Shown one piece after another: positions 1 to 34,200 of a DNA stretch of 64,000 nt. Position numbers and translations under genes: made by a program. The stretch is from the NCBI RefSeq assembly GCF_949628265.1, contig NC_088786.1, positions 868,001 to 932,000 on the forward strand, in the 5' to 3' direction. Below the pieces are notes generated by a model. It was not told the DNA's origin and searched no databases. It was given only the letters and a program-made list of their open reading frames with translations. The number at the start of each line of letters is the position of its first letter. The stretch's first letter is position 1. The stretch is from Cloeon dipterum. Lineage: Eukaryota; Arthropoda; Insecta; Ephemeroptera; Baetidae.

Positions 1-112
1 AACCTAAGTTAGGAACACCTTGCGCTAGATCGGTTTAGCTTTATTTCACATAGAGTTAGGCAAAAATTAAAATCGGAACTCGCGTTAAAGTTAGAGACTC
101 ACTACAATCACC

Positions 113-2170: not shown

Positions 2171-2208
2171 AAAAGAAACCTGTGACTCAGGCCTCGGAGA
2201 GGCACAGG
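2161..2208 (+). promoter_or_regulatory. Programmed -1 ribosomal frameshift signal between gag and pol
   Basis: The last sense bases of gag form G GGA AAC (2161-2167) in the zero frame, a canonical X XXY YYZ slippery heptamer, followed at once by the TAA stop (2168-2170). Pol is open in the -1 frame across this point. Eleven nt downstream a two-step hairpin can form: CCTGT (2179-2183) with ACAGG (2204-2208), and GCCTC (2191-2195) with GAGGC (2199-2203), with a bulge on the 5' side. Heptamer, stop, spacer and stem make a complete frameshift module. Confidence 0.8.
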
Positions 2209-5200
2209 CGACAAAAAATGAAGGAGAAAAACCTAAAAGCAATGCTTGACCAGTCAGTTCCACAAATTAAGAAAATGAAAAACACAAACAGCGTCAATTA
2301 CGATCGCCCGTATATTCCTTTAACCATTTTCGGACGCCATTATAAAGGTTTAGTCGACAGTGGCAGCGACGTCACTTTGATTGGAGACAAACTATTCCAA
2401 ACTATTAGAGAAAGGAAGCCAAAAATTCGCTATGCAGCAAAAACAATTAGCACGTTGGGTGGAAAAACAATCGTAGAAGCATTAGTAGAATTGAAAATTG
2501 AGTGGAAAGCAGGAAAAGTCACAATTCCTAGTTACGTTCTCAAAGACAACGGAAATTCCATACTATTAGGCAGAAATTTCATGCGAGCAGCAAAGATCGG
2601 ATTGACAGCAAATGGTTATTTTCACGCTAGCCAGCCAGAAAAAGTTTTCAGATTCACGCGCAAACGCGAAGCGGACTTGAAATTGTTCCACGCGAAAGTA
2701 GATGAGCAGCGAATTTTGCGTGAGCTGCTGAAGGAGAAAATTGAAAACGACCAGAACGACCAAATCCTCGTCATGCTCAAGAAATATAACAAATTCGGAA
2801 TATTCAGTGAGAGTCCTGGATTAGCAAAAAATTTTGCGGTAAATGTGGAAATAAAAGATGCCCTTCCATTTAAAACATCACTACGACCATTGAATAAAGA
2901 GATGCGGACGATATTGGACGCTGAACTCGACAAAATGCTCGAACACGACGTTATCGAGGAAACTGATAATATTGTATTCGCTTGCCCTATTCATTTGGTT
3001 AAGAAGAAAACTCCACCTGGAGAGAAACAAAAATACCGCTTAGTAAGCGACATGCGTTTCCTAAACGGTAGGACTATTGCAAGGCCATATTTGAACGCTC
3101 AAAACCTCGACACCATATTTAGTCAAATCAAGGCGAAATATTACACAAAAATCGACTTGAGCGGTGCTTATTGGCAAATGCAAATAAAATCTGACGATCG
3201 AAAATATTTTGGAATTAACACGCATCGCGGATTATTCCAATACAAACGAGCTCCGTTCGGATGGAACGCGTCAGGTTTCGAATTTCAGAGACTGATGGAC
3301 AGAACATTAAAAGGATTGATTGGAGATTTTGTTGTTAATTTCTTTGACGACATTGTTATTTACAGCCATTCCTTTGAAGAGCACGTATTGCACGTGGAAA
3401 AGGTTCTAAAACGCCTACACTCTGCAAATTTGACAATAAACCCTAAAAAGCTACAAGTAGCAGCGACAGAAATAGAATTGCTTGGACACAAAATTTCACA
3501 AGGAAAAATGATTCCTATGGAGGAAAAAATAAAAAGTATAAAAAATTACAAAGCTCCAGAAAATAAGAAAGAAGTCATGCAGTTACTAGGTTTAACCGGA
3601 TTTCTTCGCCGTTTTGTTCCAAACTACCAGATCGTGGTAGCACCAATCACTCAACTTCTACGTAAAAATGCAAAATTCAACTGGAGTAAAGCGCAGCAAA
3701 AAGCATTAGATCAAGTGATTCACCATTTGACGTCCGACCAGTGCGTATTACATTTGCCAGATATGAACAAAACATTTGAAATTTACGTGGACAGCTGCAA
3801 AAATGGAATTGGCGCAATACTGATGCAAGACGTTGACGGAGAAGGCCCAAGACCAATTTTCTACATCAGCAGACAGACAACAGATACTGAGAAAACCTTT
3901 TGCGTTTCTGAATTAGAAGCAGTCGGTTTAGTCTGGGCTATTTCTAAGTTCCAGGACTATATTCAGTATTCCCGTTTTGTCGTCTACTGTGATCATCAGG
4001 CAATAAAAAACCTTCTGCACCAAACAAACCCTTCCGGCCGTTTAAAACGGTACGCTCTTTACTTAAGTGGTTTCAATTGTGAATTAAAATATCGCCCAGG
4101 TGACTCAATGGGAGCACCCGATGCACTTTCGCGAAATGCTATTTACACAATCGACGATTTCAAAAAGCCGAACACAGCGCGTGATTGCACGATCCCTCTG
4201 GACGAGATCAAACAAGATGGACAAATTACGTTCAACGATGAAAATTGCCCAACCGAAAAACACAATTGCAATAGATGCGAAGACAAACCAGTCAAGCTTG
4301 TGCACTCAAAAGGACCACGGAAAAAGAAAAATAAAGTTGCTGAAAAGGAGAAGAAAAATGAACCAAGCAAGAAGAAAAAATTGCCAAAAGCAAGATATTC
4401 AAGCAAATTAGTAAACCCATCGCCGCAAGAACTGAAAATGGGAAACAGACTAAAAGTTCTGATTGCGCAACTCCAAGATCTACCAGATTTCCCAACCAAT
4501 GACGAGCAGTGGAAAATTGAGCAAGACAAAGACACAGAAATTGTGGCACTGAAACAAGCAGTTCAATCAGGCCATAAACCGAAATACGGTTTAATAAATG
4601 ATGTGTTGCACTATACTGCCAAAAACAAACACTTAATTGTTTTGCCAGCGCACTTGAGACCTGCCGTATTAAAATATTGCCATTCTGATGTGTTGTCAGG
4701 CCATCCAGGCAAGTTCATAACACAAAAGAAAGTTGCAAATTATTTTACTTGGCGCAACATGAACAACGATATCAACGAGTTTGTCGCAGGATGCGAAATT
4801 TGTCAACGAGTTAAATCAAAAAACCAAACAAAATTCGGCTTATATAACAGGAAACTGGAATCTCATGTCGGAAATTTACTCAGCGTAGATGCTATCGGAC
4901 CTTTGCCGCGCAGTTCAAGTGGAAATGTACATGCCATTGTTTTTACTGACGTATTCAGTGGCTATACAAAAATTTTCCCAACTCGCACGTTGACCAGTAA
5001 AGTTGTAGTCGATCGTTTAGTGTCGTACTGTACCACTTTCGGAATACCAGAACGAATACTCTCCGACAATGCTTCCCAATTTGTATCAAAATTGTGGAAA
5101 GACACTTGCAAACGTTTAGGTATTGAGTACACAGTGATCAACCCATACAGGCCATGCGAAAATAGAACTGAACGCACAAATAAAGAGTTAAAAAAGAAGA

Positions 5201-5721
5201 TTCGGTGTTACGCACAAAGCAATAACAAATTGTGGGACGTTAATTTGGACGCGATCGCCTTTAGCATTAACTCCGCGGTGTCTTCAAAAACAAAATTTAC
5301 ACCGAATATGCTAATGTTAGCGCGCGAACTCCATCACCCACAAATGCCGCGCGAACCAGCTGACGAGATTGAATATCACGAGTACGCCAATGAGTTGATT
5401 AAACGATTAAAGACAGCAAACGAAATCGCACTTGAAAACTCAGCAACTGCACAAGAGAGATACAGGACCCGTTACAACAGAACAAGACAAAACCACCCAT
5501 TTGACGTCGGAAAATTAGTCCTGCGCGAAACAAATACTCTTTCCAATAAAGAGAAAAAAATCGCCGCTTCCCTCGCGCCAAAGTACGAAGGGCCATATCG
5601 TATCAAAGAGATGGTAGGAAACAACTCATTCCTCCTAGAGACACTAGATGGACGGCAAGTAGGCAAACGACACGCAGACCAGCTCAAATTATTCACATCT
5701 TCACCACCCTGGACGTATTAA
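2182..5721 (+). CDS. pol: Pol polyprotein (protease, RT, RNase H, integrase)
   Basis: This is a 1179-residue enzyme polyprotein counted from a GTG. In practice it should be entered by frameshift at 2167, because the frame is open from there and no ATG sits at the front. Aspartic protease has DSG at about residue 59. RT has FFDD at about 387-390 in place of YxDD. RNase H begins around EIYVDSCKNG. Integrase has an HHCC zinc site (HSDVLSGH and CEICQ) at about 835-880 and the core D, D, E residues in VDAIGP, DNASQF and the CENRTE region. The C-terminal GPYRI and HADQLK motifs are typical of Gypsy integrase tails. No stops or frameshifts are seen. Confidence 0.95.
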   Translation: MTQASERHRRQKMKEKNLKAMLDQSVPQIKKMKNTNSVNYDRPYIPLTIFGRHYKGLVDSGSDVTLIGDKLFQTIRERKPKIRYAAKTISTLGGKTIVEALVELKIEWKAGKVTIPSYVLKDNGNSILLGRNFMRAAKIGLTANGYFHASQPEKVFRFTRKREADLKLFHAKVDEQRILRELLKEKIENDQNDQILVMLKKYNKFGIFSESPGLAKNFAVNVEIKDALPFKTSLRPLNKEMRTILDAELDKMLEHDVIEETDNIVFACPIHLVKKKTPPGEKQKYRLVSDMRFLNGRTIARPYLNAQNLDTIFSQIKAKYYTKIDLSGAYWQMQIKSDDRKYFGINTHRGLFQYKRAPFGWNASGFEFQRLMDRTLKGLIGDFVVNFFDDIVIYSHSFEEHVLHVEKVLKRLHSANLTINPKKLQVAATEIELLGHKISQGKMIPMEEKIKSIKNYKAPENKKEVMQLLGLTGFLRRFVPNYQIVVAPITQLLRKNAKFNWSKAQQKALDQVIHHLTSDQCVLHLPDMNKTFEIYVDSCKNGIGAILMQDVDGEGPRPIFYISRQTTDTEKTFCVSELEAVGLVWAISKFQDYIQYSRFVVYCDHQAIKNLLHQTNPSGRLKRYALYLSGFNCELKYRPGDSMGAPDALSRNAIYTIDDFKKPNTARDCTIPLDEIKQDGQITFNDENCPTEKHNCNRCEDKPVKLVHSKGPRKKKNKVAEKEKKNEPSKKKKLPKARYSSKLVNPSPQELKMGNRLKVLIAQLQDLPDFPTNDEQWKIEQDKDTEIVALKQAVQSGHKPKYGLINDVLHYTAKNKHLIVLPAHLRPAVLKYCHSDVLSGHPGKFITQKKVANYFTWRNMNNDINEFVAGCEICQRVKSKNQTKFGLYNRKLESHVGNLLSVDAIGPLPRSSSGNVHAIVFTDVFSGYTKIFPTRTLTSKVVVDRLVSYCTTFGIPERILSDNASQFVSKLWKDTCKRLGIEYTVINPYRPCENRTERTNKELKKKIRCYAQSNNKLWDVNLDAIAFSINSAVSSKTKFTPNMLMLARELHHPQMPREPADEIEYHEYANELIKRLKTANEIALENSATAQERYRTRYNRTRQNHPFDVGKLVLRETNTLSNKEKKIAASLAPKYEGPYRIKEMVGNNSFLLETLDGRQVGKRHADQLKLFTSSPPWTY

Positions 5722-6199: not shown

Positions 6200-6766
6200 A
6201 GAAGGTTCATGTTACTAGTCAAAATTTCATTTATGCCCTTGTTGTAAAATGATTTAATAGTTAAAAATTGTTTGTTACATTGATTATCCACAATATTGTA
6301 CACAAGCCAATTTTCTTTTTGCGACCCCGGATATGAGACGACCTACACCATGCAAGATATAACCTGTCAATATATGTCTGTATGTAAATGAGGAGTAGGG
6401 GACAAGCGTATAAATAAAGCGCGCCTGCTCATATTCTTTATCATTCTGATTCTGAGTTTGCTACCTGGCCGCTCTAGTTAGCCGGCCAGAGCAGGAGCGA
6501 TACAGCTCAGCTAGTTAGAGTTTTATTCCTAGATCCCAAACCCTAACTCGCTATCGGCAAGGGAGAAACCGGCCTGCGGTTTCCCCTGTACAGCCCGGCT
6601 GTTCGTCATACCGTTCTTCCGGTTGACGCCGATTGCGAGTGAAGTCCCTTTCTAAATTCGCGCGACCGGTCGGCTATTCCCTAGTCGTCGTCGGAGTGCC
6701 CGTCACGTTAGCTTTTGTTTTAGTATTTAGAACCTAAACCCCTAGACTAACCGGAAGGCCGCTTCA
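6200..6766 (+). repeat. 3' LTR of the Gypsy element (left boundary approximate)
   Basis: A TATA box (TATAAATA at 6410-6417) is followed about 25 nt on by an initiator-like TCATTCTGATTC, as in an LTR U3/R junction. The right end is put at CA 6766 because sequence aligning with the macrodomain of element B begins at GGTGACTTATTC (6768). Without the 5' LTR the left end cannot be measured. A purine run before the LTR is not obvious; AGGAGTAGGGGA at 6391-6402 lies too close to the TATA box to mark the LTR start. Confidence 0.5.
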
Positions 6767-8443
6767 GGGTGACTTATTCCTCGACTCACCCGGGACGCCG
6801 CCCTTGCACACTGTGTAGGGGGTGACTTCTTGATGGGGGCAGGACTGGCTGTTCACGTTTGGAAACGCTGAATTCCTAAGGTCGCAGCAGAAAAAACCTG
6901 GGCAAACGGCAGTCCTGAAATTGCCGGACGACCAAGGAAATGGAACCGATAAACTTGTGTTCTACCTGGTTACTAAACCCCGTTCAGCCTGGTGCAAACC
7001 CCGGCCTGAAGACTTCAAATCCGCTGTACGTGACCTGGCCCGACAATGTGCTGAACTCCACGTCTCTACACTGGCCATCCGAAAAATAGGCGCCGGCCTC
7101 GACAAGCTCGACTGGCGTTGGGTTCGAAGTGTCATCGAGGACGAATTTTCCGGCAGCAACACGGAAATCCTTGTGTTTCATCACCCTGCGAAAGACTGAG
7201 GAAGAGATGGTGTGCTCAGCCAGTGAAACAAGTGGCCCCGAAGAGTAGCGGCACCACGGACGCCGCCCAAGCACAAGATGCCGCTGGATGTGGTGGACTC
7301 ACTGTGCGTGGGATGGAGGCCATCGTGAATGCAGACAAAAGGACAACACCACCGAGGGCCACTCCTCCTCCCAATCACAGCCACCCAGCGGCAGAGAGAC
7401 AAGGTGAGCAGTTCCCAATTTGCTCTGATTTGGTCACTTTGGCCAATGATCAACCTGTCCGCGCTCATGAGGTTTTAACCTCCGACAGGCAGGATGACTG
7501 GAAGCTGGTGCAGCGACATCGTTCGGCCCCCGACCTTGACGGCAACCCTGAGGCCGTCCAGGAGCAACCCGCCGCGTGGAAGGAGGGATTCACTGAGCAC
7601 GGGGTGGAGGACATCGAGTTCATCGAGCCATCCGAGACGACGAAGGGGGCCGCCCCCAACCCCGTGCTCAGACCTCCGGCGGCCGACGAGCGAGGTGAGC
7701 GTAACTCAGTTTCTTACATGGCCAACCCTGAGGCCAAAGAACCAGTCACCTCTTCTGAAAAAATTTCCTCGTCCCCCAGCAAACAGGTGTCGAGTCCCAA
7801 AATCTCGACAATCGAGAGGAGGATTAACGACGTGCGGAGCAAATTGGCCCAAGTTGACGCGGTAATCGCCAAGACACAGCCACACCCCCCAAACGCCCCC
7901 CGGCGAGATGGTGCCACAAAAGCCATCACATCTATAGTCACCTCGGCGGGTGGTACAGCTGGTCGCGGCACGGAGACCTGTAAGGTGGCTTGGGTTCCAT
8001 CTCCTTCCGCGACTGGCCCCACCCCAGGGCAAACATCAGGTGAGACCTGTTTAAAAACACCGGAGGCACTTGCAGCTAAAGATATGCCTGTTGATGCCCC
8101 TGTTGATGCTGCAAAAATTTCCAGTGATGCAGCTAACATGGCGAGGAAAAAGACGCAGATGCCAAGACGACAGCTTAATAGCTTGAAGCCCGATCACGAT
8201 GAGGATGGCGACGACATTACCATTGATGAGAAGGATGTCTGCGAAGCCCACGCGCCAGAACCAGTAAAGACAGACGGCTCCACCTTGAGAACAAGATCTC
8301 AGAAAAAAGCCGCCGCCTCAACAGTGCCTACAAAAAACAGAGACAAAAAGGACAACAATCAAATCAAGTTACTGATAAGAGTGAGTCAAATAACTTTCCT
8401 GCCATTAGTGAGAACAACTATAAGTGTGATTTTAAGGACTTAA
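6767..8443 (+). pseudogene. ORF1 of element A: TARG1-like macrodomain plus low-complexity C-terminal half, degraded
   Basis: The first 430 nt encode a macrodomain in shifting frames: GDLFLDSPG, ALAHCVGGDFLMGAGLAVHV, FLRSQQKKPGQ, KLVFYLVTKPRSAW and IRKIGAGLDKLDW. The frame is open from 6921 to 7199. These blocks match the known order of TARG1/OARD1 (GDLF, LAHC, MGAG, LLNQQKKSGE, YYLITK, GCGLD), including the Lys after the MGAG helix and the Asp of GAGLD. Two frameshifts precede 6921 and a third separates the macrodomain from a 7200-8443 frame rich in Pro, Ser and Lys. That part shares the GxAGRGTETC block and QAQDAA with ORF1 of element B. The N-terminal end is lost at the Gypsy junction. Non-functional here. 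Confidence 0.8.
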
Positions 8444-10024
8444 GAATCCTCTCTCTAAACGCGTATGGACTGCATGATGGTACAAACTATAACATGTTCT
8501 GCGACTTCGTTAACAACCTAATGCCCAAGCCAGATATAATCATTATATGTGAGCACTTTCTAGACAAACACGAAATCAATATATTCAAATTACAAGGCTA
8601 CAAACTAATATCACACTACGCCAGGGCAAAAAAGAGGGGAGGAGTCATGATCTTGTTAAGTGAAAACATAATCTGTAATGATAAGCCAATCAAGTTAAAA
8701 TCTATCAATTTAGTCTTTGAGGTCTGTGGCAGCTTGATCTGCCTAGATAGTTCTCCAATAGCCATTGTAGCAATGTACAGACCAAGCAATCCTAATGCTA
8801 ACTCAAATATTGAGTCTTTTTTTGAAAATTTACAAGAATTATTAGAACAAAACCGAGGGAGTGGAAACTTCCTGCTCGCGGGAGACTTAAACATTGATCT
8901 TACAGATTTAATGGCATCTACTAATCACCAATCACACAAACTCATTCAAATTTGCAAGTCGTTTGATCTGAGCCTTGTAAATCACACAGGCGCGACGAGA
9001 AAACCGAGTAATTTAGTCCGAGGGACCCTTATCGACCACTTATTTTTCAACATGGCTGAAAACAGTCAATATGAAATACTAAACACCCATTTTTCTGATC
9101 ACAAAACGGTTTTCGCCAAACTAGCAATTCCAGTAACAAAAAAAGTTGATACATTTGTATTTAAAAGAGTTTTCAAGGAGGAAAACTGGGGCCGCTTTGA
9201 AAGACTCTTACAAAAAGAATCGTGGCAGTGCATTTACGAAAAAAGAGACATAGATGATATTTGTAACTCATTCATGAGAACATTAATCAATTACTTTGAA
9301 ATATCCTTTCCTGTAAGGAAATGTATCATCAGAGCAAACCAACTCGACAAAATTGAATTGTCTCATTCAACCAGACTGATAAAAACTGAGCTGAGGGAAC
9401 TAAATGAATCTATCAAATGTGTGACTGATATTTCACAAAAAAACATTCTAAAAAGTAAATATAAGTCCCTAAAGAAGTATCTAAGCTTCTGTATAAACTC
9501 AGAAATAAGACAGAAAAATGACAAAACGATAGTAAACTCGGCAAACAAGAGCAAAGCTGCTTGGAAAATTGTTAAAAACACAGTGCAAACAGCATTTTAT
9601 GAACACAAAATCGAATCACTGAATGTAGGCTCCTATAAGACTAAAGACACGAGATTAATTGCAAACACACTCAACAAAAAATTTGTGGTTAACAAACCGT
9701 CTCAGAACACTGACACTAGCCAATATCCCATGACAAAACCCCAACTACACTACAAATTTGAATTAATTCCTACTAGTCCTGCTGAAGTCTATAGCGTTCT
9801 CATGAACTTAGCAACAAAATACTCTGCTGGTTGGGACGGCATATCCGTCAACGTCCTAAAACGAATTGCGTTATTTGTAATTAACCCGCTATCACATCTC
9901 ATAAATGTGTCTTTCCACCAAGGAAAATTCCCCGAAAATATGAAACTGTCCAAAATTATACCAGTTTTTAAAAAAGGGGAAAAAGATGATCCAGCGAATT
10001 ACAGACCAATATCGATAACGTCAT
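8363..10024 (+). pseudogene. ORF2 of element A, part 1: AP endonuclease and start of reverse transcriptase
   Basis: Translation is open from about VTDKSESNN, overlapping the end of ORF1, through LRILSLN. It passes the endonuclease motifs SEH-like CEHFLDK, AGDLNIDL, LIDHLFFN and FSDHKTVF, then the RT entry region (GWDGISVN, PVFKKG, NYRPISITS). It stops abruptly at 10024 because an LTR is inserted. The enzyme would nick target DNA and prime reverse transcription from the element RNA. The frame is clean over 1.6 kb, unlike ORF1, and resumes at 11660. Confidence 0.9.
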
Positions 10025-11659
10025 TGTAGACTCACTGCATGAGCTACATTTTTATAATTCACTTTATGCTCTTGCAAGCACCAGCCCCCCTTTTGCTCCA
10101 GCCCCCCTGTTTGCGTGCATACTCATAGCGCCCGTGAGGGAAGGTCCATTTTTATACCAGTTAAATCATGCACATAGCGTGACGTCACTTTTGCCAGCCA
10201 CAACTTGCGAATTACTAAAATCAATCTTGTGATCGCTCACTCACGGAGCCGAGCCAACCGAGTAGATACAAGAGCGATTGCCTAAAAGCGAGCAAGCGAC
10301 GCGGCTGACAGAGGTGCATCGCTGCACGTGCCATCGGGCACGGACAACGACCCCTCTCGACGCCATCGTAGCTGTCAGACATGATGAAGAGCGGGTCATT
10401 TCAAGGTGGCGAGGGCCACCTCCCATTAAATCATGTCAGTCGTCCCCCTCCGAAAAGAGGCGTTGATGTCGCAATCATAGACAAAAAAACAAGTAGCAAA
10501 TGGACCAAAACGTCAAAAACCCGCCTGAGTTATGGAGCGTCATGTCTAGACACGCGTGCACACGGGCGGGACTTGGGTATAAAGAGGGGGGATCCCGACG
10601 CCTCGGGGCTCTTGTTCCACACCCGCTACACGAAGCAGCAGGTTGTTTCTCTCGTCACCCCGTGACATGTATATTGGCCGTGACATAAATCTGTCATTTT
10701 GAGAAACCGAACACCAGCCAACTTGGGCGCTGAGCACCCCTCAGTGCTGCATTCCCACCCTAATTCGCTGACAACCGGGACACACATGGAATCCATTATC
10801 TTCCTTGTTCTCTTGTAAGTACACTCACATTTCGATTAGTCCCCTCCGACAAGTCATTCGCGTCATATTACCCAAGTTTTATTGCCATTTTGACCCAACA
10901 AGTCAGGCGTCAAGTTTCTTCCACAAACATTAGAATACTCGACGTATTTTAAGTAATTCAGAAATTTCCGTTGATTTTCCGTTAAGTTCCGTCTGTTCCG
11001 AGAATTCATATCACACTCAAACACATTAATATTCCAAAGTGCCTACCTCAGTATTTTATTTCAATAATTGTCTACAACCCTTTCCATAATTGCCATTTGT
11101 CATTTTGTCTAGTTCTGCATATTCCTAAAACAATGCTGTATCGCTCGAATAGTTTGTGTGAAATAAACCATTTTTCCAAAGTTTGTAAACTCTAATTCGT
11201 TCGTTTCTGTCCTGCCATTATATCTCCATTCTGCTCAAATTTGAAATTAAACGAAATTGATAAGTTTAACGTAAATGTGTTTTCCCATTTAATGCGTGGA
11301 AGACTAGTGCTGAAGTCTCACAGGACGGCCAATTTAAAGTAAAAGTGCTTTCCCATTCAGGCGAGGAAAGTTAATCGCCCAAAAGAGAGTTATCAGAATC
11401 AGAAAGAAATATTCTAAAGACACCCGCTGAGAGAGTAGCGAGAGTTCATATCTCCGCACAAAGGAAGAGAGGGAGAGCCGTGCCGTCCGCACACCCCTCG
11501 GGCCTGGCCTGCCGAAACTGCCGCGCTGGGCGCCCACACACACACGGTGAGTTGCTTTCTTCTCTCCTTTGTTCGCCAGTCCTTCCAGTGCACCCCGAAC
11601 TCAAACTCAAATCTGCTGTGTAATTTATTCGCTCTATTAACACCTTGAGCGAGGCTACA
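10025..11659 (+). mobile_element. Solo LTR, 1635 bp, flanked by 5-bp target duplication GTCAT
   Basis: The unit starts TGTAGACTC and ends GAGGCTACA, giving TG...CA termini with short imperfect inverted ends. GTCAT stands on both sides (10020-10024 and 11660-11664). A TATA box lies at 10578-10584 and an AATAAA at 11162-11167, in the order expected for U3-R-U5 on the + strand. No gag or pol is inside. It interrupts ORF2 of element A; deleting it with one GTCAT restores the RT frame. It is what remains after LTR-LTR recombination of a full element. The family cannot be assigned because no coding part remains. Confidence 0.85.
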
Positions 11660-11842
11660 GTCATCTATCTCAAAAATCTTTGAAAAGGTATTCCTTGCAC
11701 GCCTTGAAAATTTCCTCTCTGTAAATAACTTGCTTAGTGAAAACCAACATGGGTTTAGAAAGAGCAGGAGCACAGTTACATAGCTCTATATGATTTTGTT
11801 ACCACTATTTATTCATCCATAGACGCGAGAGATAAAATTAAC
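11660..11842 (+). pseudogene. ORF2 of element A, part 2: reverse transcriptase fragment
   Basis: This short RT piece reads SSISKIFEKVFLARLENF, then a stretch with ENQHGFRK, the RT motif that follows NYRPISITS in related elements. One stop or frameshift occurs near 11780. It ends in ...DARDKIN at the insertion point of element B, where TAAC (11839-11842) is repeated at 17766-17769. Confidence 0.85.
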
Positions 11843-11973
11843 AGATTCAGATTCAGATTCAGATATTCTTTTATTTTGTTAAGCCAAATATTTACAGGGG
11901 TGGCTCTTAAAATAAGTCAGGTGTAGCCTTTTTGGGCTGTTAAACATAATATCACAGACATAAAAAATAATAA

Positions 11974-14934
11974 TTACAGACAGAAAAATTCGTCCAGGTC
12001 ATAGAATTGGTGGTGCAAAACCAGCTGCTTGACATTGGAGATAAACTCTTTGCTATCATCAATTAACTTAATTGAACTTGGAAGCGCGTTGAAGAGTCTC
12101 GGTATCATGCTCGCTGGGTTTTGCACCGCCTGTTTCAAATTACATGGTTTAACGTACAGGTCATTGTAACATGCGTTATTTTCTTTTCTGCGAGTGGGTA
12201 TACCGCCTACATGTGGAACGTCTCTACATTTTGGAAATTCTGCGGGGTACTTTTTGAGGAATTTCATACATTCATGGATGTACAAGGAATAAACTGTCAT
12301 GATATTAAGCTCACGAAAGAGGTCACGACAGGATTCTAAGGGTCTGTTGCTCCTCCCATAATACTTGCCGCACATGGCCCGAATCACTCTTTTTTGGGCA
12401 GTGAACACGGTTTTCATGTGGCAGGAGCCTCCCCATATCACGATTGAGTACAGAATGTGACTAGGCCGCGTACACCTGTTTTAAAGCCGTCTTAGACACT
12501 TTGCCATATAGCATTGTGAACAGGTAGGTTACACTACGCAGTTTGGCCGCGACACTGTTACATTGTTCTTCCCAGTTTAGATTTTCGTTTATATACACTC
12601 CCAGCAGTTTACTGGATTTCACAACGTCCACTTTTTCACCATTCACTATAATCACTGGCTGAATAATATTTTTTGTTTGGGTGGTATGCATTTGGACCAT
12701 TTTAGTTTTCTTCCCGTTTAGCGTTAGGAAGTTTAAATCAGCATAGTTTACAATTTCCTCGTTGGCCTGTAATGATTTCGAATTGACGTCTATACAATTA
12801 GCACCGCGAATTATTACAGTAGAATCATCAGCAAACATTATTAGTGTTGCGATCACTATCTGAAGTGGAAAATCATTCACATAATTGGTGAAGCAGTTTG
12901 GGCCAAGCGTGGTGCCCTGCGGTATACCCATACTAGATTTTAAAACACTTGAATTTATCGTTTTGAGATGATTTCCATCAATCTCTTTTAGCTCGACATA
13001 TTGTTCACGATCCAACATGAAACTTTGTAGCCAGCTAATGGCAGTTTCATTCAAACCATACATTTCAAGTTTTTTTAACAAAAGCTGAGGATATAGGGTG
13101 CCAAATGCGTTACTAAAATCGTACAGGATCACATTGACTCGCTCTTTAGCCTCCATTGAACAGGTAACTAGGTTGATAAATTCGAACAACGCAGAATTTG
13201 TGCTTTTACCTTTCTGGAAACCATGCTGTTCAGCAGAAATTAAATTATTTCGCATTAGATGGTTCTCAAGTCGTGCTAAATAGACTTTTTCAAATGTTTT
13301 TGAAATAGACGAAGTGACTGCTATTGGTCTATAATTTTGAATGTCAGTCTTAGAGCCTTTTTTAAAAACCGGAATAATCTTTGACAACTTCATGTTCTTT
13401 GGAAATTTACCAGAGTTAAGGGAGGCATTAATCACATGACAAAGAGGAACTACAATTTGGAGAGCGATTTTTTTAGGATTTCCACCGAGATACCGTCCCA
13501 GCCATGAGATTTTTTAGTTTGGAGTTTTTGTATGATTGCGTAAATTTCTGCCTCACTTGTTGAGGCTAGAAAGAATTTATCACAAATTTGAACTGGGGGA
13601 TGGACATATTCATGATTTGGATTCGGAGGGACAGGAACTACAAAGTTTTGGTTTAACTTATTAGCTATTATTTTTTTATCTACGATCTTCGCTCCTCCAA
13701 TAATGACATTGTCAATTCTGTCAACGCTTTTAGTGCAACACATTTCATTTATAATATTCCAGGCTGTCCGTGATTTATTTTCGGCTCGTGCTATTTTCTG
13801 ATCATTAAATTTTTTAATGTCATTGTTAATGCAATACGAGACATAATTTTTTAGATTTTTGTACGCCTTTCTAAGCTTGTCTTTGCTTTCAGGATTACGC
13901 TCTGATTGAATTTCATCCGCGAGGTCTCTAAGTTCGGCTTGTTGCAGGCGGGTGTGATCAGATAACTCTGCTTTATTTAGTTTGTTCGCTCGTTTTAAGG
14001 CACGGGTAATAGGGAAGCATAGCTCAAAATACTTGACTAACAGTGTTACGAATGATTCGCATTTTTCGTCGGCAGTTTTAACTGCATATACATCATGCCA
14101 GTTCTCAGATTCTAACATGTCAATCAATTTATTTAATTTGTGGTCTGAATATTTCCTCGCGTGGATAAATATATCCTTACAAATGCTAGCTTCGATTTTC
14201 AAATTTGCCGAGATTGCCATATGATCAGAGAAAGATAGGTTTACTATTTGGAAATTTCCCGGATCGACAAGAAGCGGGCTTGCTATTACATAGTCTATTA
14301 GGGAGCCTGAATTGGGATTTTCATTGGGCCTAGTTACTTTTCCAGCGTTTATAACGACGGTGTCGTAGCTATGGAGGATGTTTTCCAGTTGAATTGAATT
14401 TTTTTCCCGACGCAAATAATCGATGTTAAGATCTCCCGCAATAAGAATTTCGCCCTTGCATCTATATTTTTCAATTGTGTTTTCAAGGTGCACAAAAAAC
14501 TGGCCAATTTTTGAATTTGAATCAGGATTTGACGGTCTGTAGATTGAGAATACATGCACAACTATGTCATTGATTTCCATTTTGACGCCGCATATTTCGA
14601 AGAGGAATTCCTTTGAGCTTGTTTTAACATTTTTAATTTTACAGTTCAATATTTCATTGACTAGTAATAATACTCCTCCCCTTTCTCGTTTTATTCTTCC
14701 GTAGCATGCCATGTTTTTGTAGCCCTTTAGTTTAAATTTGAGAACCTCGTATTTATCGAGCCAATGCTCTGAGATCGCTATAATATGGGGTTGGGGTTTA
14801 ATTTGGCTTACAAATGTCATGAAAAAATTGAATTTGTCTGGATTTTTCAGTCCCTGCACGTTTAAACTCAGTATGTTGAGATTAATTGGGTCTCTAGAGT
14901 TCTGTTTTACCTTTACGAATGTTTTATCACTCAC
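11974..14934 (-). pseudogene. ORF2 of element B: AP endonuclease plus reverse transcriptase, two frameshifts
   Basis: Endonuclease occupies the first 240 or so residues (LNILSLNVQG, AISEHWLDK, AGDLNIDY, LIDYVIAS, FSDHMAIS). RT follows with KSHGWDGISVE, NYRPIAVTSS, EQHGFQKG, GIPQGTTLGP and the catalytic FADDS, then a C-terminal QVY...SHILYS...WGGS thumb region. Frame breaks sit at an A7 run near 13473 (one base short) and near 12461 (QVYAA then a stop, with the frame resuming at SHILYS). The catalytic Asp pair is intact. The start is a GTG at 14934, but the frame is open upstream over the ORF1 stop, so translation may be coupled to ORF1 (inference). Confidence 0.9.
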
Positions 14935-14942
14935 GTCACTGT

Positions 14943-15797
14943 CTACTTTAGTTTGTTGTCTTCTCTCTTGCTCTCGTTTTTTCGTGCTGAGGATGTCTTA
15001 GTGTCTTTAACTGTAGGCTGCTGCTTCTTCTTCCTATTTCTTGTCAGTGCTGGGCTTGGGGCCGCGTCAGGTTCAATTTGCGTTTTCTTATGCTTAGACA
15101 TGTCGGGCTGCACATCACTGTTGTTTGATGCGGAGTCATTCGGCGTTCGGCAAGCAGCAATCTCGTCATTTAGAAAGCCGGCACTGGAAACGGGGGCCCC
15201 ATCAGTAGCAATACGTATTTGGGCACCGTTAGCATAGAGTACCTCAGGTGATTGAGAAAAAGGAACTGGCTCACCTGATGAGTGCCCTTGGGTGGGGCCA
15301 GCCGCGGAAAGAGATAGAACCCCAGTCGCCTGACAGGTCTCGGTGCCGCGGCCAGCTGGTCCACCCGCCGCGACGACTGTAATGTTGACAGCTTTAGTGG
15401 CACTGTCTCGCCCAGGGGAAGGGGAAGGGGCCCTCGTGGACTTCAGCACGGGGTCAGCCTGTGGCGACAACAACAGGTTGTTGTAGCGCTTCTCGATGTC
15501 GTCCATGAAGCGGTCGAGAGGGGACTTCTTTTGGTTGCCAGCCTTCCCGTCGTCAGTTTTGGCAGGGCTGTTTGCAGGAGGAGAGCCATCAGAGCGAGCA
15601 TCAACGAGTTCCTTGACCGCGAAAGTGGTCAGAGGAGAAACAGGAATGAGCTCACCTGAATCTACGGCCGCAAGGGTGGGGCTGGACGCAGGAAGCGTGG
15701 TGGCCCCCGAAGTCGTCTCGCTGTCCATCCTGCGCCCAGCTTGTCCACCCTCCACTGCGGCGTCCTGTGCTTGGGCGGGTTTTGAGGCGCCGCCACG
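14943..15797 (-). CDS. ORF1 of element B, C-terminal part: low-complexity basic tail
   Basis: This 284-codon continuation lies beyond element C. It begins RGGASKPAQAQDAAVEGG in frame with the codon before C and ends with a Lys/Arg-rich tail (SKHKKTQ, TRNRKKKQQ, KREDNKLK). The GRDSATKAV...GGPAGRGTETC block is shared with element A and is the best conserved part outside the macrodomain. The tail is likely to bind nucleic acid (inference). ORF2 starts 9 nt beyond the stop in another frame. Confidence 0.8.
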   Translation of the reverse strand, partial: RGGASKPAQAQDAAVEGGQAGRRMDSETTSGATTLPASSPTLAAVDSGELIPVSPLTTFAVKELVDARSDGSPPANSPAKTDDGKAGNQKKSPLDRFMDDIEKRYNNLLLSPQADPVLKSTRAPSPSPGRDSATKAVNITVVAAGGPAGRGTETCQATGVLSLSAAGPTQGHSSGEPVPFSQSPEVLYANGAQIRIATDGAPVSSAGFLNDEIAACRTPNDSASNNSDVQPDMSKHKKTQIEPDAAPSPALTRNRKKKQQPTVKDTKTSSARKNESKREDNKLK

Positions 15798-15801
15798 CCA
15801 A

Positions 15802-16867
15802 ATTCAAATTCAAATTCAAATTCAAAAAAATTTTATTCTGTTATGGTAAAATATTTACAGTTGCCATTTAGAATATGTCAAGTGTTTACTATAAACTAAA
15901 ATCACTAAAATTACAATTAAAGTATTCAAATCTGTCATAAAAGCAGTGGGTAATCAAAAGTTTCTTTGTTGTATTTACAAAATTGTTGTAATTCCCAATT
16001 TGTCGAATTTGCTTTGGTAATTTATTATATACTCTTGGTATCATCACTTCAGGGCTTTGTGAGCACAGGATCATCGAGGTAGAGGGCACTACGAGTTCCT
16101 GCTGGTCAGCATTCATGCTGCGTGTTATGCGAGTATTCACTTCTGCGACATCACTCGTTCGCAAGATTTTTTCTGGGTGCTTTCGGACGTATTTTGCGCA
16201 CTCGAGGACATAAAGGGAAAAAACAGGCAGAATTTCTAATTGACGAAACAGTGGACGGCAGGATTCAATTTCTTGGCCTGGTCTACGTTTTCTTCTCTTC
16301 TTTGCCATCGTCCTCAATATCCTCTTTTGTGAGACGAGTACGTCACTCAGATGGGTTGATGCTCCCCAGACAATCAAAGAGTAGAGGATGTGACTCTGAA
16401 CGTGCGCAAAGTAGACTTGCCGCATAATTTTATCTGTTACTCTATCTTGCATTTTTACAAAAAGGAAAGTAGCACTCCGGAGTTTAGCACATACTTGGTC
16501 GCACTGTTCCTTCCAGTTCATTGTGTCGGAGAGAATTACTCCGAGTACCTTGCTTTGGGATGCTACTTCGACCCTTTTTTCACCGATGTACACTTCTGGC
16601 TGCAAAATCTTCCTTGTTTGTGCTGTGTGTACTTGAAGAATCTTGGTTTTTTCAGCATTCAACCTTAAGCCATTGGCCTTAGCGAATTGGCAAACTTTGT
16701 CGTTCACTTCGTTTGTCAGTTGGTTTACGCTTTCGTAGGTTGCTGCTCTGGTGGTTATTGACAGGTCATCAGCGTAGAGAGCAAGGCTGCAAGCAACGGA
16801 TTCCAGTGAAAGATCATTCTCATACATTGTAAAACCAAGAGGTCCAAGCACTGTTCCCTGAGGAACA
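15802..16867 (-). mobile_element. 5'-truncated non-LTR element C inserted in ORF1 of element B
   Basis: This 1066-bp element reads on the - strand from the middle of RT (VGVPQGTVLGP) to a 3' UTR ending in four TTTGAA hexamers. TTGG (plus-strand CCAA at 15798-15801 and 16868-16871) stands at both ends. Removal of C plus one TTGG joins the two halves of ORF1 of element B in frame. The RT is related to that of A and B but distinct, and the tail hexamer differs, so it is another family. Confidence 0.9.
15889..16867 (-). pseudogene. Reverse transcriptase C-terminal part of element C
   Basis: This is an open frame of about 326 codons from the GVPQGT motif to the stop. It contains LYADDLSI, the catalytic YADD box, then LNAEKTKILQVH, KVLGVILSD, MNWKEQCD, QVYFAHVQSHILYS and WGAS. 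Endonuclease and the first half of RT are missing through 5' truncation, so it cannot act alone. The frame itself carries no stops, indicating recent insertion. Confidence 0.9.
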
Positions 16868-17602
16868 CCAACTGGGGGCCACTCTTCTCCGCATAACCCT
16901 TCTCTCGTTGGGTTCGGTGAAGATAAGGATGTCTGTTTCGCTGCCAGCAAACGCGTCCTCCAGCACGCTTACCACCCATGGCCAGTAGAGACGGTCTAGT
17001 CCTGCGCCGATTTTCGGTATAGCGATCGTCGGCACGTTGGACTTGTTGCATCTCTCGGCCAGGGCGAAGACGGCCTTGCGGAAGTCCTCTAGGCGGGGGC
17101 GGCAGCGGGCTGACCTTGGTTTCGTGACCAGATAGAAGACAGTCCTGTCCTCTTGGTCACAGATGATCGAAGTGACTTCACCGGGTCGAAGACCGAGTGA
17201 CCTCAAGTAGTCTTGGTAACCGAAGCGCTCTTTAAAAGTGATAGCTAGACCAGCTGACATCGCAAAGTCGGCACCTACGCAGTGTCCCATTGCTGCACCT
17301 TGAGGGACATCAGTGAAAAGATTGCCTGTGATAAAGTGAATTTTTGCGACGCCGGTCGGGGAGATTCCCGAGGCCTGTGCAGTCAGTGGACGGCCATCTT
17401 GAAGCGCTTGGCTATAAGTCCTTATTGTGTCCGTCTGAAGGCCGACTCTGTCCTTGAGAAGCTGTAGGTCGCGGAGCACTGTCTCAATTTTCTTCTCTAG
17501 TCGTTGATTTTCTGCGCCCCGGCCACAACAGGGGCAGACAGGAGCAGGCGGAAAGATGGAGGCCGGTGGAGCGCCACGAAAAATATCAATTTTACGCCGC
17601 AT
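16868..17602 (-). CDS. ORF1 of element B, N-terminal part: Cys motif, coiled coil and TARG1-like macrodomain
   Basis: Starting at the ATG at 17602 this reads 245 codons. Order: a CPCC cluster at residues 23-26, a heptad-like charged helix at about 31-58, then a macrodomain at about 84-231. Blocks are ITGNLF, MGHCVGADFAMSAGLAITF, KERFG, RPGEVTSI, YLVTKPRSARC, IAIPKIGAGLDRLYW and TDILIF. These follow human TARG1/OARD1 in order and spacing, a known hydrolase that removes ADP-ribose from Glu/Asp and uses a Lys and an Asp. The equivalents here are Lys124 (FKERFG) and Asp203 (GAGLD). Element C splits the ORF at Trp245. The frame resumes at 15797, so ORF1 would be 529 residues without C. The role in retrotransposition is unknown. 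Confidence 0.85.
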
Positions 17603-17765
17603 TTCTGCAGGCACAGCGGAGATTTCACTCGCGCAAGTAGCCGGACCAACAACTTATCTTGTGCGAAACCTTTCACCTGGACCCTCTGTCATAAAACGGT
17701 TCAAAAGACTCTAAAATCGGCGAGGCCTAATGCAGCAGTATTTGTTTATGTTCGGCAGGCCTGCC

Positions 17766-18953
17766 TAACGTAATCTTGTACGACTTGTCAAATGCCTTCG
17801 GGACATTGTACCCCCAACTTCTCTTGCAAAAACTGAAAAATTACGGACTTTGTAACAATTCACTAAACTGGCTAAAAAGTTTCCTCTTAAACCGAGAACA
17901 GTTCGTACAGCTTAGGGAACTAGACCCTTTAAGTAACACGTATCGTAACATTAACTCCACGTGGGAGACGTCTCAAATGGGTATACCCCAAGGTACCACA
18001 GTGGGACTCACCGGCTTCAACATATACACGAATGACTTAGAATTACATGTAGTGATTGCTGCACTGTGCTTATTTGCGGACACTAGCGTAATGGTCAAAG
18101 GACCCAATAATGACGAGGTCAATAATAAATCGATAGCTGTAAACAGTCAAATTGTTGAATATACAAGAATCAATCACCTTAGCCTAAACGCAAATAAGAC
18201 AAAACTGTTACAAATACACGTGCCACAAATGAAAAATGTGATAAACCCCAACATTAAAATCAATGAACTACCAGTTGATGTAGATTGTAAAGGTAAACTA
18301 TTAGGAGTGTTAATCTCAGACACGCTAAATTGGAATGATCAAAATGTGATGCCGTTAGCAATAAACTCCGAAGTGTTACCTATTTGTTCACAATGTTAAG
18401 AGAAAAAGTGACGAAAAGCATACTAAGACAGGTTTACTTTGCTTACGCACAGAGCCACATCTTGTACTCGATCATTATTTGGGGCGGGTCACCATCTCTC
18501 AAAAATGTCTTTGTGGCGCAAAAAAGGATTGTGCGAGCCATGGCTGGCATGAGATACTGGCGGAAAAACACCGCACTGGACTCATATGCCGTCCACTTTT
18601 TACAAAATATGAAATTCTTACTGTTTATTCATTGTATATTCTGGAGTGCATGAAATATTTGGTCAAATATAGGAATAAATTCACCCTGGCGCGAGACCAA
18701 CCCTCCATTGGCCCACGTACCAGGCGTGCGGCTACTAATCTCTCTCCCAGTGACTTACATGTAGAAGCGTGCTCCCTAAACATTTCAAACCAGAGTCCAT
18801 CAATTTATGATCCCTAGAATTTTTAACAATTTACCGGTAGAGATAAAACTGATTGAGGAAGACCAAACATTTCTTAAAGCCATAAAAGCCATTGTATGGA
18901 AATACCAATTCTACGATATGTCTGAATATTTTGCCTGTGATTTTATAATATAG
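17766..18953 (+). pseudogene. ORF2 of element A, part 3: RT palm, thumb and C-terminus
   Basis: The frame runs from NVILYDLSNAFG through GIPQGTTVG, the catalytic region LFADTSVMVKG, LSLNANKTKLLQ and KLLGVLISDTLNW. The second Asp of the FADD box is replaced: the site reads FADTS where element B has FADDST, probably a small deletion, so this RT would be inactive. Frameshifts follow at about 18343, 18590 and 18815, after which the end IPRIFNNLP...FYDMSEYFAC reads to TAG at 18953. The 3' UTR continues to the CTTGAA tail. Confidence 0.9.
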
Positions 18954-19364
18954 TTAATATTAGTATGTTAGTATGTAATGTAGGTTAGCATAAGATTGAC
19001 GTATTTTAATAAGTCAACCCTGTAAATATTGACTTAATCAAAATAAAAAGCTAAAACTAAACTAAAACTAAACTATAAAATTAATTGAATTGAAGATAGA
19101 TAAATTAATTAAATTAAATGTTTGATTCAGGGATTGCTTGGTCAAAAAAAAAAGAAATTGTGAATTTGTGAAAGTGATGAAAAAACTACTAAGTGATTGC
19201 ATATCTTTTTTATGACTTGCATGAATATTTGTTGTGTGAATGGCAATTGTGAATGATTTTTTTATTTATGATATGTACTCTGTTGTTGACAACAATTCAA
19301 AAAACCATTATAATTATGTCGGTTTTAATGAATAAAGATTAACTTGAACTTGAACTTGAATTGT
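18954..19364 (+). other. 3' UTR and hexamer tail of element A
   Basis: This AT-rich stretch has no ORF. It holds ACTAAA repeats near 19050-19075, an AATAAA at 19331-19336 and an ACTTGA hexamer tail at about 19342-19362. It ends only about 165 bp upstream of the first likely potassium channel start codon. Confidence 0.7.
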
Positions 19365-31276: not shown

Positions 31277-34200
31277 TTATTATTATTATTATTATTCTTG
31301 TTTATTCTCATCATGTCATAATACAAATACAGTACACATAATGTACATTATGTCAAAGTCAAAAATTATCGATGAGTAAAAGGCAACAATGCTAGCGGAA
31401 AACCGATTTAACAGACCGAAGTCATCGCAATGCGACCGTGGGAAAAATCACTAACACTAGAAGCGCACGTTCACAGACACTTTAAAACTCTTGCCACATG
31501 TGCTGCTTGAGGAGAGCGGGGAATTGCGCGGCGTTGCAGTCTTTGAGTGCCGGAGGCAAATCGTTCCATGGCTTGACTACCCTGAAGGAGAACGCGCGCT
31601 GGCCGAAAACACTGCGAGTCGGAGGCGGCTGGAGACGGGGGTGCTGGCCACTATCACCTCTCAATACACGACCCTCAATTATTCTCGCACGCGCGTTAAA
31701 ATCGGTCTCACCACACTCACACTTTTTGAAAAAGATTAAGTCATTGTATCTCAGCAGCATTGGGAATGGCATGATTTTTTGCTCATTGGCCGGCGGCGGA
31801 TTGCGGCCATAGATGAAATGCACCGCCCTCTTTTGCACCCTCTCCAGCCTGTTGACGTTGTCTTGTGTTGTCGGGTGCCAGGCTGGGAGGCCGAAAGTCA
31901 TTACCGGTCTCACAAGAGTCAGGTATGCCACCCTCTTAACGCGGGCCGTGCACCCTTGCAGGTTACGCGCCGCGAACCCTAGGTTTCGTGCTGCCTTCGC
32001 ACGCACGATGTCCGTGTGCTCGTGCCATCGGAGGTCGCTTGAGATGTGCACGCCGAGCATACGCTCCTTGTGCACGTACTCGAGAACCGTAGCACCGAGG
32101 GTGTACACGAACTGCAGAGGGACGCGCGCGCGGGTTATGTCCATGATTTTGCACTTTTTGGCGTTCAGAGTCATCCCGTTGTTGGAGCACCAAATGTCGA
32201 TGTTGAACAAATCTTCCTGCAGCGCGTCGGCATCTTCTTGGCATCTTATTTCTTTATAAATGGTCGCGTCATCGGCGTACTGGACAAGGGTGCTGCTTGT
32301 TACCATTTCTGGTAAATCCGCGACGAAAATGTTGAAGAGGAGCGGGCCGAGAACGCTCCCCTGAACAACTCCCGAGGCCACCTCACAAGGCTCCGAGCTC
32401 TCTCCGCCGAACTTGACAAACTGGGTTCTGCCAACGAGGAAGTTCTCGTACCACTTAAGCATTTGACCTTTTATGCCGTAGTGCTGCAGCTTAGAGAGGA
32501 GCCTCGGATGCAAGACTTTATCAAAAGCCTTGCTCCAGTCCAGGAAGACAGCGTGGATGTGAGTGCCGCTCGCTTCGTCCAGGGCAGCTGTCCAGTGGTC
32601 TATTGTCCCCGTCAGCAAAGTGGTGCAGCTTCTTTTCTCCCGAAATCCATGTTGGCATGAGGGAATTACTTTTTCTTTTTCTAAGTATTCCACCGTTCTG
32701 TCTCGCACGATTCGCTCGAGCGTTTTTCCCACAAGAGATGTAATGCTGATAGGCCTATATTAGTTCTGCATGTTGCTTTTATCTCCGTCCTTGAATATGG
32801 GGGTGACTGCTGCAGTTTTCCAGTCGGCCGGAAGTTCGGCGGACTCGAGCGATTTGTTGAAAACGTGTGCGAGAGAAGGAGCGAGCGCTGCGGCACAGTA
32901 TTTGAGCAGGGGAGCTGGCAATCCGTCTGGGCCAGCAGCTGCGCTCGCCTTAATTTGCTGCAACCGGTTATGCACCTCGGCACTTGTGCACACCAAATCG
33001 CACATTTCTTCTGTGGAATCTACGCACGGCGTGTGTCGTCTCATGAAAGGAAATATATTTACGGCTCGCGAGAAATTTCTTTGAAAAACAGCACTGAATC
33101 CAGCAGCCACCTCACGGGGCTCACTGACACTTTTTCCTTGAAGTTCGAAGGTGAGATTATTGTTAGGCACTTTTGTCTTTGAATTGATGTAGCGCCAGAA
33201 TTCATTGCTGCCGTCCGGTCCATTTCCGATCCTCCAGAGCCAGTTGTCTCTCGTCGCTCTCAGTGCTTTCTGGACTGTTCTACGTGCCGCTACAAACGTA
33301 TCTCGCGTTTCAGCCGTTTTTTCCCTCAACCATTTCCTGAAAAGCTCGTCCCGAATTTTTATTAATTTCTTCAGGCCCGTGTTCATCCACGGTAGTAGCC
33401 GCTTTTTCCTACCGCCAACTCTTCTTTTTGGGATGAATTCCTCTGCACAGTCAAAGACGATTTTTTTCCAGCTTTCCCAAGCTTCATTCATGTCTGTTTT
33501 CTGCATAACTGGCTGCAAGCGCCCCTCTAATACGTCATTTATTGCAAACCAGTCAGCACGACGGAAATCTAAAATTTCGCGCGGCGCGCTGATTGGGCGG
33601 CAAGAACTGACCGATAGGGTGACTAAGAGGGCATCGTGGTCAGAGATTCCGCACACAACATTAGCGGCCGCAACGAGCTCGGGAACGTCACTGAGGAAAA
33701 GGTCGAGGATATTTTCCGAGTTTTCTGTCGTTCTTGTTGGCGATTTAATGTGCTGCTCCAGGGCCATTGTGGTGAAAGCGCTCAAAAAATCATCTGCGGG
33801 GGCTGCGTGAGCGCGAGGTGGATCCAAAAGCCACGAAACGCTAAGATTAAAGTCGCCCATCAAGAAACACCCGTCGTAGCTATGTTGCTCAGCCGCTGCA
33901 AGCTCGAGCGATTCTAAAAGCGCCGCGTTATAAACGGTGTCCGCGTTTGGCCGCCTGTACGCAGACCCGACGAGGAAATGCAGCGAGTTTGCCTTTATTT
34001 GCGCCCACACTATCTCGGCCTGGCCCTCGAGTTGTTGCAACCTCTTTGGCTGCAAGTGTGGCCGTATTGCAAGAGCAACGCCTCCGGCAGGTCGGCGGCC
34101 CCCCAGCCTGTCCTTACGCAGGACAACGTAGTCGCGCGGCAGCACCTCGTAATTGTGAACGTCCGGCGATAGCCACGTTTCGTTAATTGCGCACACGTCG

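Follow-up and report, generated by a model that had tools for sequence, protein, structure and literature searches.

In a 64,000-nucleotide stretch of the genome of the mayfly Cloeon dipterum (NC_088786.1, positions 868,001 to 932,000; hereafter the window), the first open reading frame (ORF1) of a long interspersed nuclear element (LINE), designated element B, encodes a TARG1-type macrodomain. Strong purifying selection holds the domain in ORF1, and comparisons of ORF1 with ORF2 sequences suggest its transfer from one LINE type to another. The type had been proposed in an earlier note on this DNA and was borne out by sequence, fold, the published TARG1 pattern and the catalytic residues. The window is part of contig C1 (43,195,403 bases), and the genome searched comprises 190 Mb. 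Codon counts for ORF1 and ORF2 are given from stop to stop.

Domain layout of ORF1

The plus strand of 16868-17602 has stops in the frame read. The open frame lies on the minus strand, with ATG at 17602 and a stop at 16820-16822, and has 264 residues. Residues 1-245 (17602-16868) are ORF1; the remainder belongs to another LINE inserted there. Because copies L036 and L037 have an uninterrupted version of this insertion site, the window frame covers only the N-terminal portion of ORF1, which continues at 15801-14943. The frame described earlier therefore stands as an N-terminal part and fails as a whole ORF1; open ORF1 frames in other copies reach 517-630 codons.

The Cys cluster (CPCC, within PVCPCCG) and the macrodomain at residues 84-231, with the blocks GNLF, GHCVGADF, SAGLAI, YLVTK and GAGLD named in the earlier note, are present. 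Cys clusters also precede the macrodomain in L039, L040, L045, L046, L050, L053 and L055 (by eye). Ahead of the macrodomain, AlphaFold2 predicts a long helix, presumed to be a coiled coil, with a per-residue confidence (pLDDT) of ∼80 at residues 31-50 and 46-53 at residues 51-70. In ten-residue blocks the macrodomain model has pLDDT 79-96 at residues 91-230, 69 at 81-90 and 55 at 231-240. Human TARG1 matches residues 86-233 of the 264-residue frame (E = 3.2e-25) and ranks first in both fold comparisons of the predicted structure; the suggested structure prediction thus gave a macro fold nearest TARG1 and not some other fold. An RNA-bound viral macrodomain structure (3gpq) is also among the fold-comparison matches. 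Note that the Pfam Macro model falls under its cut-off on the window ORF1 (13.1 versus 22 bits), so Pfam alone fails to call the domain. No RRM, esterase, PHD or zinc-knuckle Pfam match was obtained in the four ORF1s scanned, a scan that weak domains could escape.

Active site and TARG1 pattern

Active-site residues were aligned in 18 rows: 13 LINE rows of the Cloeon genome, protein P0001, the non-LINE paralogues L047 and L048, P0002 and human TARG1. In TARG1, Lys84 is the nucleophile and Asp125 resolves the intermediate, and the enzyme reverses DNA ADP-ribosylation (as stated in PMC9967889). Equivalents of both residues are kept in all 18 rows. In the window branch the TARG1 pattern and the two catalytic residues are intact, as is most of the pocket. 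That pattern, TKx(30,35)Px[IL]GxGxD, was designed for TARG1-type proteins (as given in PMC6397177) and fits 16 of the 27 sequences tested. These include six of 12 Cloeon LINE rows (window, L037, L039, L040, L045 and L046), P0001, P0006, P0008, the host TARG1 (L023), L002, human TARG1 and four more. Unmatched are L043 (Pro to Leu), L049, L025, L050, L053, L055 and five others. More divergent domains are still recognized as relatives: a profile of three L050-type domains matches TARG1 at E = 1.1e-11, the L049 domain at 3.8e-7 and the L057 ORF1 at 3.4e-5. For the L050-type domain, modelled from P0010, the fold prediction has low confidence (mean pLDDT 44).

Selection on the domain

Ratios of nonsynonymous to synonymous substitution (dN/dS) were calculated by the Nei-Gojobori method (NG86) for 14 ORF1 pairs, of which 13 are between LINEs. 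Some sequences enter more than one pair, and the L036/L037 values depend on very few changes. In the seven LINE pairs with computable values in the macrodomain (five others have saturated synonymous sites there and one has no synonymous change), dN/dS is 0.07-0.16 in the macrodomain versus 0.40-0.82 in the rest of ORF1. In 13 of 14 pairs the rest of ORF1 has a lower proportion of synonymous differences (pS) than the macrodomain, with a tie in the remaining pair, and this inflates the ratio outside. The proportion of nonsynonymous differences (pN) taken alone is nonetheless 1.2- to 4.3-fold higher outside the macrodomain in 13 of 14 pairs, L040/L042 being close to nil on both sides. Within ORF1 the constraint is strongest on the macrodomain, which is present in near-identical copies; the lower dN/dS and lower pN inside it show that selection acting on the element maintains it.

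Macrodomain LINE families

A genome search with the window ORF1 returned 57 matches. Three of these, 19-residue matches to the foreign tail (residues 246-264), were removed before upstream matches and positions were counted; the remaining 54 include non-LINE genes such as the host TARG1. Five of 20 stretches have both ORFs open and overlapping, with ORF1 and ORF2 codons, respectively, of 546 and 1008 (L037), 517 and 973 (L039), 543 and 1063 (L049), 578 and 990 (L050) and 618 and 1020 (L055). The shared layout is a macrodomain ORF1 with a long Ser/Pro-rich basic tail and an overlapping ORF2 with apurinic/apyrimidinic (AP) endonuclease and reverse transcriptase (RT). The RVT_1 and AP-endonuclease models match all four ORF2s scanned (L037, L039, L049 and L050), and L1 and R2 predominate among the PDB relatives of two ORF2s. 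Copies are near-identical (L036/L037, 98.5% over 4873 bases; L041/L042, 99.8% over 4644; L038/L039, 99.4% over 4627; L050/L051, 99.2% over 4868; L050/L052, 97.5% over 5216), and the families are therefore young.

Searches with ORF2 as query, which are less biased towards the macrodomain than those with ORF1, were scored for 47 of 1270 and 45 of 632 candidates. Among matches reaching near the ORF2 start, a macrodomain match lies upstream in 16 of 23 for L037 and 13 of 31 for L039; with all listed matches included, 5'-truncated ones among them, the counts are 21 of 46 and 15 of 47. In these counts 5'-cut copies are not separated from copies with a different ORF1, several matches are fragments of one element, and a divergent macrodomain would escape. 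Two matches 98-99% identical to the L039 ORF2 (C2:36621812 and C5:311965) have no macrodomain match upstream.

The positions of macrodomain matches are uneven: on the five large contigs 30 of 49 lie less than 2 Mb from a contig end (∼11% expected if even), mostly at one end of C2 and one of C5. The 49 include non-LINE matches.

Exchange of ORF1 and origin of the domain

Macrodomain ORF1s occur on two distantly related ORF2 backbones. The ORF1s of L037 and L039 are 43.6% identical over 514 residues (323 bits), versus 26% over 331 residues and 72 bits only for their ORF2s; the L037 ORF2 is closer to the RT part of another LINE in the window, at 31482-32759 (131 bits), than to the L039 ORF2. Forcing the macrodomain tree to the ORF2 grouping cost 10.5 log units (approximately unbiased test, p-AU 0.019), and forcing the ORF2 tree to the macrodomain grouping cost 9.0 (p-AU 0.016), with groups picked after the trees had been viewed and with a short domain. 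The ORF1 tree alone does not reject a clade of L037, L045 and L046 (p-AU 0.19), so that the exchange may have gone in either direction.

One ORF2 with 60% identity to the L039 ORF2 is preceded by an ORF1 of 416 codons (L056) in which no macrodomain was detectable (hhalign probability 0.1%; no PDB match); its tail is faintly like macrodomain-ORF1 tails (hhalign probability 20.7%). Another L039-type ORF2 (56%) follows the L057 ORF1, which holds a divergent macrodomain (hhalign probability 99.2%). The ORF1 shared by distant ORF2s, together with the contrast of L056 and L057, suggests that the domain acts as an ORF1 module that is gained and lost and crosses LINE backbones. The exchange of ORF1 between distant backbones is displayed here within one genome.

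By eye, a stretch W....TPL...Y...RK precedes the divergent macrodomains of L050 and L057 (L057 residues ∼165-200), more weakly that of L049, and may be a further ORF1 module.

A 40-row tree was built from 17 sequences of the Cloeon genome, 18 of 66 search hits (picked by hand), P0001, P0002, P0006, P0008 and human TARG1. In it, 28 rows, comprising the LINE domains, the TARG1s and a few more, are set apart from 12 other macrodomains (100/99). The LINE label changes three times (bootstrap range 2-4; a single change in 0% of 200 bootstrap trees); the starred branches force at least one change, and long branches were flagged. LINEs may have captured the domain once, with a common origin, or several times. 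The host TARG1, L023 (C3:25042792-25043193), is 53% identical to human TARG1 and pairs with it (91/93), not with the LINE domains.

Some macrodomain frames have no ORF2 seen beside them. L047 (C2:24889767) and L048 (C5:27785003) are related frames of 309-339 codons with a TARG1-like domain (dN/dS 0.29) and a long tail. L033, L034 and L035 (C5:23157513-23171541) are three adjacent short frames, with relatives in Cloeon (P0009, P0011 and P0012) and in metagenomes (P0013 and P0018).

Proposed function and alternatives

DNA breaks, RNA and silencing factors are all sites of ADP-ribosylation, and a LINE meets all three; some RNA viruses carry macrodomains against this modification. Judging from its residues, the window-branch macrodomain is likely to bind ADP-ribose and to remove single units by the TARG1 lysine mechanism. 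We give about an even chance to this reading as a whole, which includes the further proposal that the element-borne eraser strips host ADP-ribose and thereby favours insertion or expression. The ORF1 protein would oligomerise on element RNA through its helix and carry the eraser into the nucleus, to the ribonucleoprotein (RNP) and the insertion site. The eraser would there remove ADP-ribose placed by host PARPs or another host transferase. Its targets would be the RNP, the RNA or DNA ends of the intermediate formed during insertion, or silencing factors, and its action would let insertion or expression proceed. In mammals, PARP1 occurs in nuclear LINE-1 ORF2p complexes and is reduced in endonuclease and RT mutants (as reported in PMC5821459), and mono-ADP-ribosylation of KAP1 by SIRT6 silences L1 (as reported in PMC4695847). 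If the proposal is true, a retrotransposon with an eraser is engaged in the same arms race as RNA viruses, inside the genome, and restraint of LINE insertion by PARP signalling becomes directly testable.

Several observations weigh against the eraser. At the position of the adenine-binding Asp (human D20), the window, L036, L037, L053, L055 and P0002 have Asn and the other rows Asp; as a binding residue outside the TARG1 pattern, it was not treated as type-defining. Ser35 is replaced by Gly and Tyr150 by Phe in the window family and likewise in L039, L040, L045 and L046. Ligand loops are strongly altered in L049/L025 and L050/L053/L055 despite the kept Lys and Asp, as is the first ligand loop of L057, which makes ADP-ribose binding there doubtful. 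P0007, a Cloeon gene model outside the 18-row alignment, lacks the Lys stretch and is perhaps a broken copy. Besides the macrodomain-free L056 ORF1, seven of 23 (L037) and 18 of 31 (L039) near-start ORF2 matches listed have no upstream macrodomain match. Finally, the tie of the ORF1 protein to PARP, DNA ends or silencing is one that we infer. Exons of a host PARP gene lie in the window at 58211-59110 and 59494-60300 (plus strand; WGR, PARP_reg and PARP catalytic domains). This gene shows only that ADP-ribosylation machinery exists in the mayfly, and its position ∼41 kb from the macrodomain LINE is probably a coincidence.

The degenerate loops of L049/L025 and L050/L053/L055 would also suit a macro fold that serves as the nucleic-acid-binding core of ORF1 in place of an RRM, without ADP-ribose chemistry. 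RRM-type ORF1 proteins have their RNA-binding core behind the helix, the position that the macrodomain takes here, and a viral macrodomain has been solved with RNA (3gpq, above). We nevertheless regard such a structural module as rather unlikely: the window branch keeps most of its pocket along with pattern and catalytic residues, and Lys and Asp persist even where the loops have changed. The retained Lys bears equally on a reader, which would bind ADP-ribose on chromatin or nicks, tether the RNP to PARP-active sites and aid target choice; a pure reader has no need of it, yet all 18 rows have it. The predicted fold lies near ADP-ribose binders, the ALC1-like macrodomain class includes a binder of poly(ADP-ribose) without enzymatic activity (as described in PMC9967889), and macrodomain matches cluster near contig ends (30 of 49), but the clustering may come from selection or heterochromatin and the 49 are of mixed kind. 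A reader is judged unlikely.

The host has a TARG1 of its own, and its exon could in principle have been captured recently, or joined by an assembly accident, with no role in the element. The window domain is just 33% identical to the host TARG1, however; many copies on different contigs have the same ORF1-ORF2 order under strong purifying selection, and there are relatives among Cloeon proteins on contigs of 44,486 and 434,950 bases, probably from another assembly, and in metagenomes. We therefore consider this account highly improbable, and a single captured exon is ruled out by copies and selection; the refuting case raised in the earlier note, a host exon confined to one copy, does not apply, the domain being present with ORF2 in many genomic copies.

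The eraser reading can be widened, more doubtfully but still as a possibility, to one in which the TARG1-type hydrolase would be a standard, exchangeable cassette of insect LINEs, a counter-defence like the viral macrodomains. Swaps of ORF1 between the two backbones would have spread it, and some lineages would have made of it a new kind of ORF1 core whose Lys and Asp serve an unspecified chemistry.

Relatives and known systems

LINE-1 ORF1p has a coiled coil ahead of a core of RRM and C-terminal domain and has no macrodomain; viral macrodomains act against host ADP-ribosylation. Those of alphavirus nsP3 and others are less similar to the ORF1 domain than TARG1 is and belong to RNA viruses, not LINEs, so the parallel is one of logic only. 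The macrodomain of the bacterial antitoxin DarG, partner of the DarT toxin, likewise shows a lower likeness than TARG1. Human TARG1/OARD1 (C6orf130) is a free host enzyme of ∼150 residues, a mono-ADP-ribosyl hydrolase, whereas the Cloeon domain, known from its sequence, is embedded in a longer LINE ORF1, where it follows a helix, and has D20 changed to Asn in the window family. CR1/L2/Jockey LINEs share two ORFs, an AP endonuclease and RT ORF2, a modular ORF1 and ORF1 exchange between lineages; they differ in that "macro" is absent from the main text of Metcalfe and Casane (2014), who surveyed 448 elements of the Jockey superfamily and whose abstract and keywords name PHD, esterase and RRM as ORF1 domains (PMC4120745).

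No account of a macrodomain-ORF1 LINE was found in the literature searched (mostly non-subscription; Repbase, Dfam and InterPro lay outside that search), in line with the remark in the earlier note that its author knew of no well-described class with a TARG1-type macrodomain. An earlier record in one of these databases or in a subscription paper is possible. The macrodomain is an added core domain for the list of ORF1 types. Protein searches returned the Cloeon proteins P0004 and P0007 (named macro domain-containing), probably from another assembly, together with three ORF1-like proteins from metagenomes (P0001, P0006 and P0008). An alignment-based search gave no relative in viral contigs (12 pattern matches) or prokaryote genomes (30).

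Nested elements and other features of the window

The earlier assignment of the frame to ORF1 of a non-LTR element was also upheld. ORF2, with AP endonuclease and RT, overlaps ORF1; copies are many and dispersed, the 3' tail is a tandem repeat and a 4-bp target duplication flanks the element (Table 1). A clear target duplication was not read in the flanks inspected at L036 or L037.

Comparison with other copies revealed three nested layers, whose families (L045, L037 and L049) all have an ORF1 macrodomain. Element B sits in ORF2 of the outer L045-type LINE, whose own macrodomain ORF1 is decayed (match at 6765-7190 with internal stops). The inner L049-type insertion consists of the RT part of ORF2 and the 3' end, with a tail of GAATTT repeats. 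It is flanked by TTGG (15798-15801 and 16868-16871), which is ambiguous between a 4-bp duplication and 5' microhomology.

Table 1. Features of element B and of the LINEs nested with it (window coordinates)
Feature	Position	Strand	Basis or remarks
ORF1 of element B (L037-type LINE), first 245 residues	16868..17602	-	Frame and copy comparison
Cys cluster of ORF1	17525..17536	-	Sequence
Predicted long helix, presumed coiled coil, residues 28-68	17399..17521	-	AlphaFold2
TARG1-type macrodomain, residues 84-231	16910..17353	-	Sequence and predicted fold
Lys codon, equivalent to human TARG1 K84 (nucleophile)	17120..17122	-	Alignment with TARG1
Asp codon, equivalent to human TARG1 D125	16994..16996	-	Alignment with TARG1
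ORF1 of element B, second part	14943..15801	-	Ser/Pro/Ala-rich, basic tail; 98.9% identical to residues 262-546 of L036 ORF1
ORF2 of element B, AP endonuclease and RT	11977..14997	-	Broken, with changes of reading frame around 13470 and 12457
Element B, full length except for the insertion	11843..17765	-	5' end GGCAGGCCTGCC; 3' tail of CTGAAT repeats
TAAC target-site duplication of element B, low side	11839..11842	.	Flank comparison
TAAC target-site duplication of element B, high side	17766..17769	.	Flank comparison
5'-truncated L049-type LINE inside ORF1 of element B	15802..16867	-	99.6% to L049 over 1074 bases
Outer L045-type LINE, split by element B	6768..18973 (6768-10008, 11660-11841, 17767-18973)	+	Copy comparison

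Two further retrotransposons were seen in the window. A different LINE with endonuclease and RT lies at 31482-34892 (minus strand); a PHD-like Cys/His cluster precedes these in the same frame (by eye) and gave no Pfam PHD match. At 95-5721 (plus strand) lies a retrotransposon of the long terminal repeat type, in which two long frames, one like gag and one like pol, are open (by eye).
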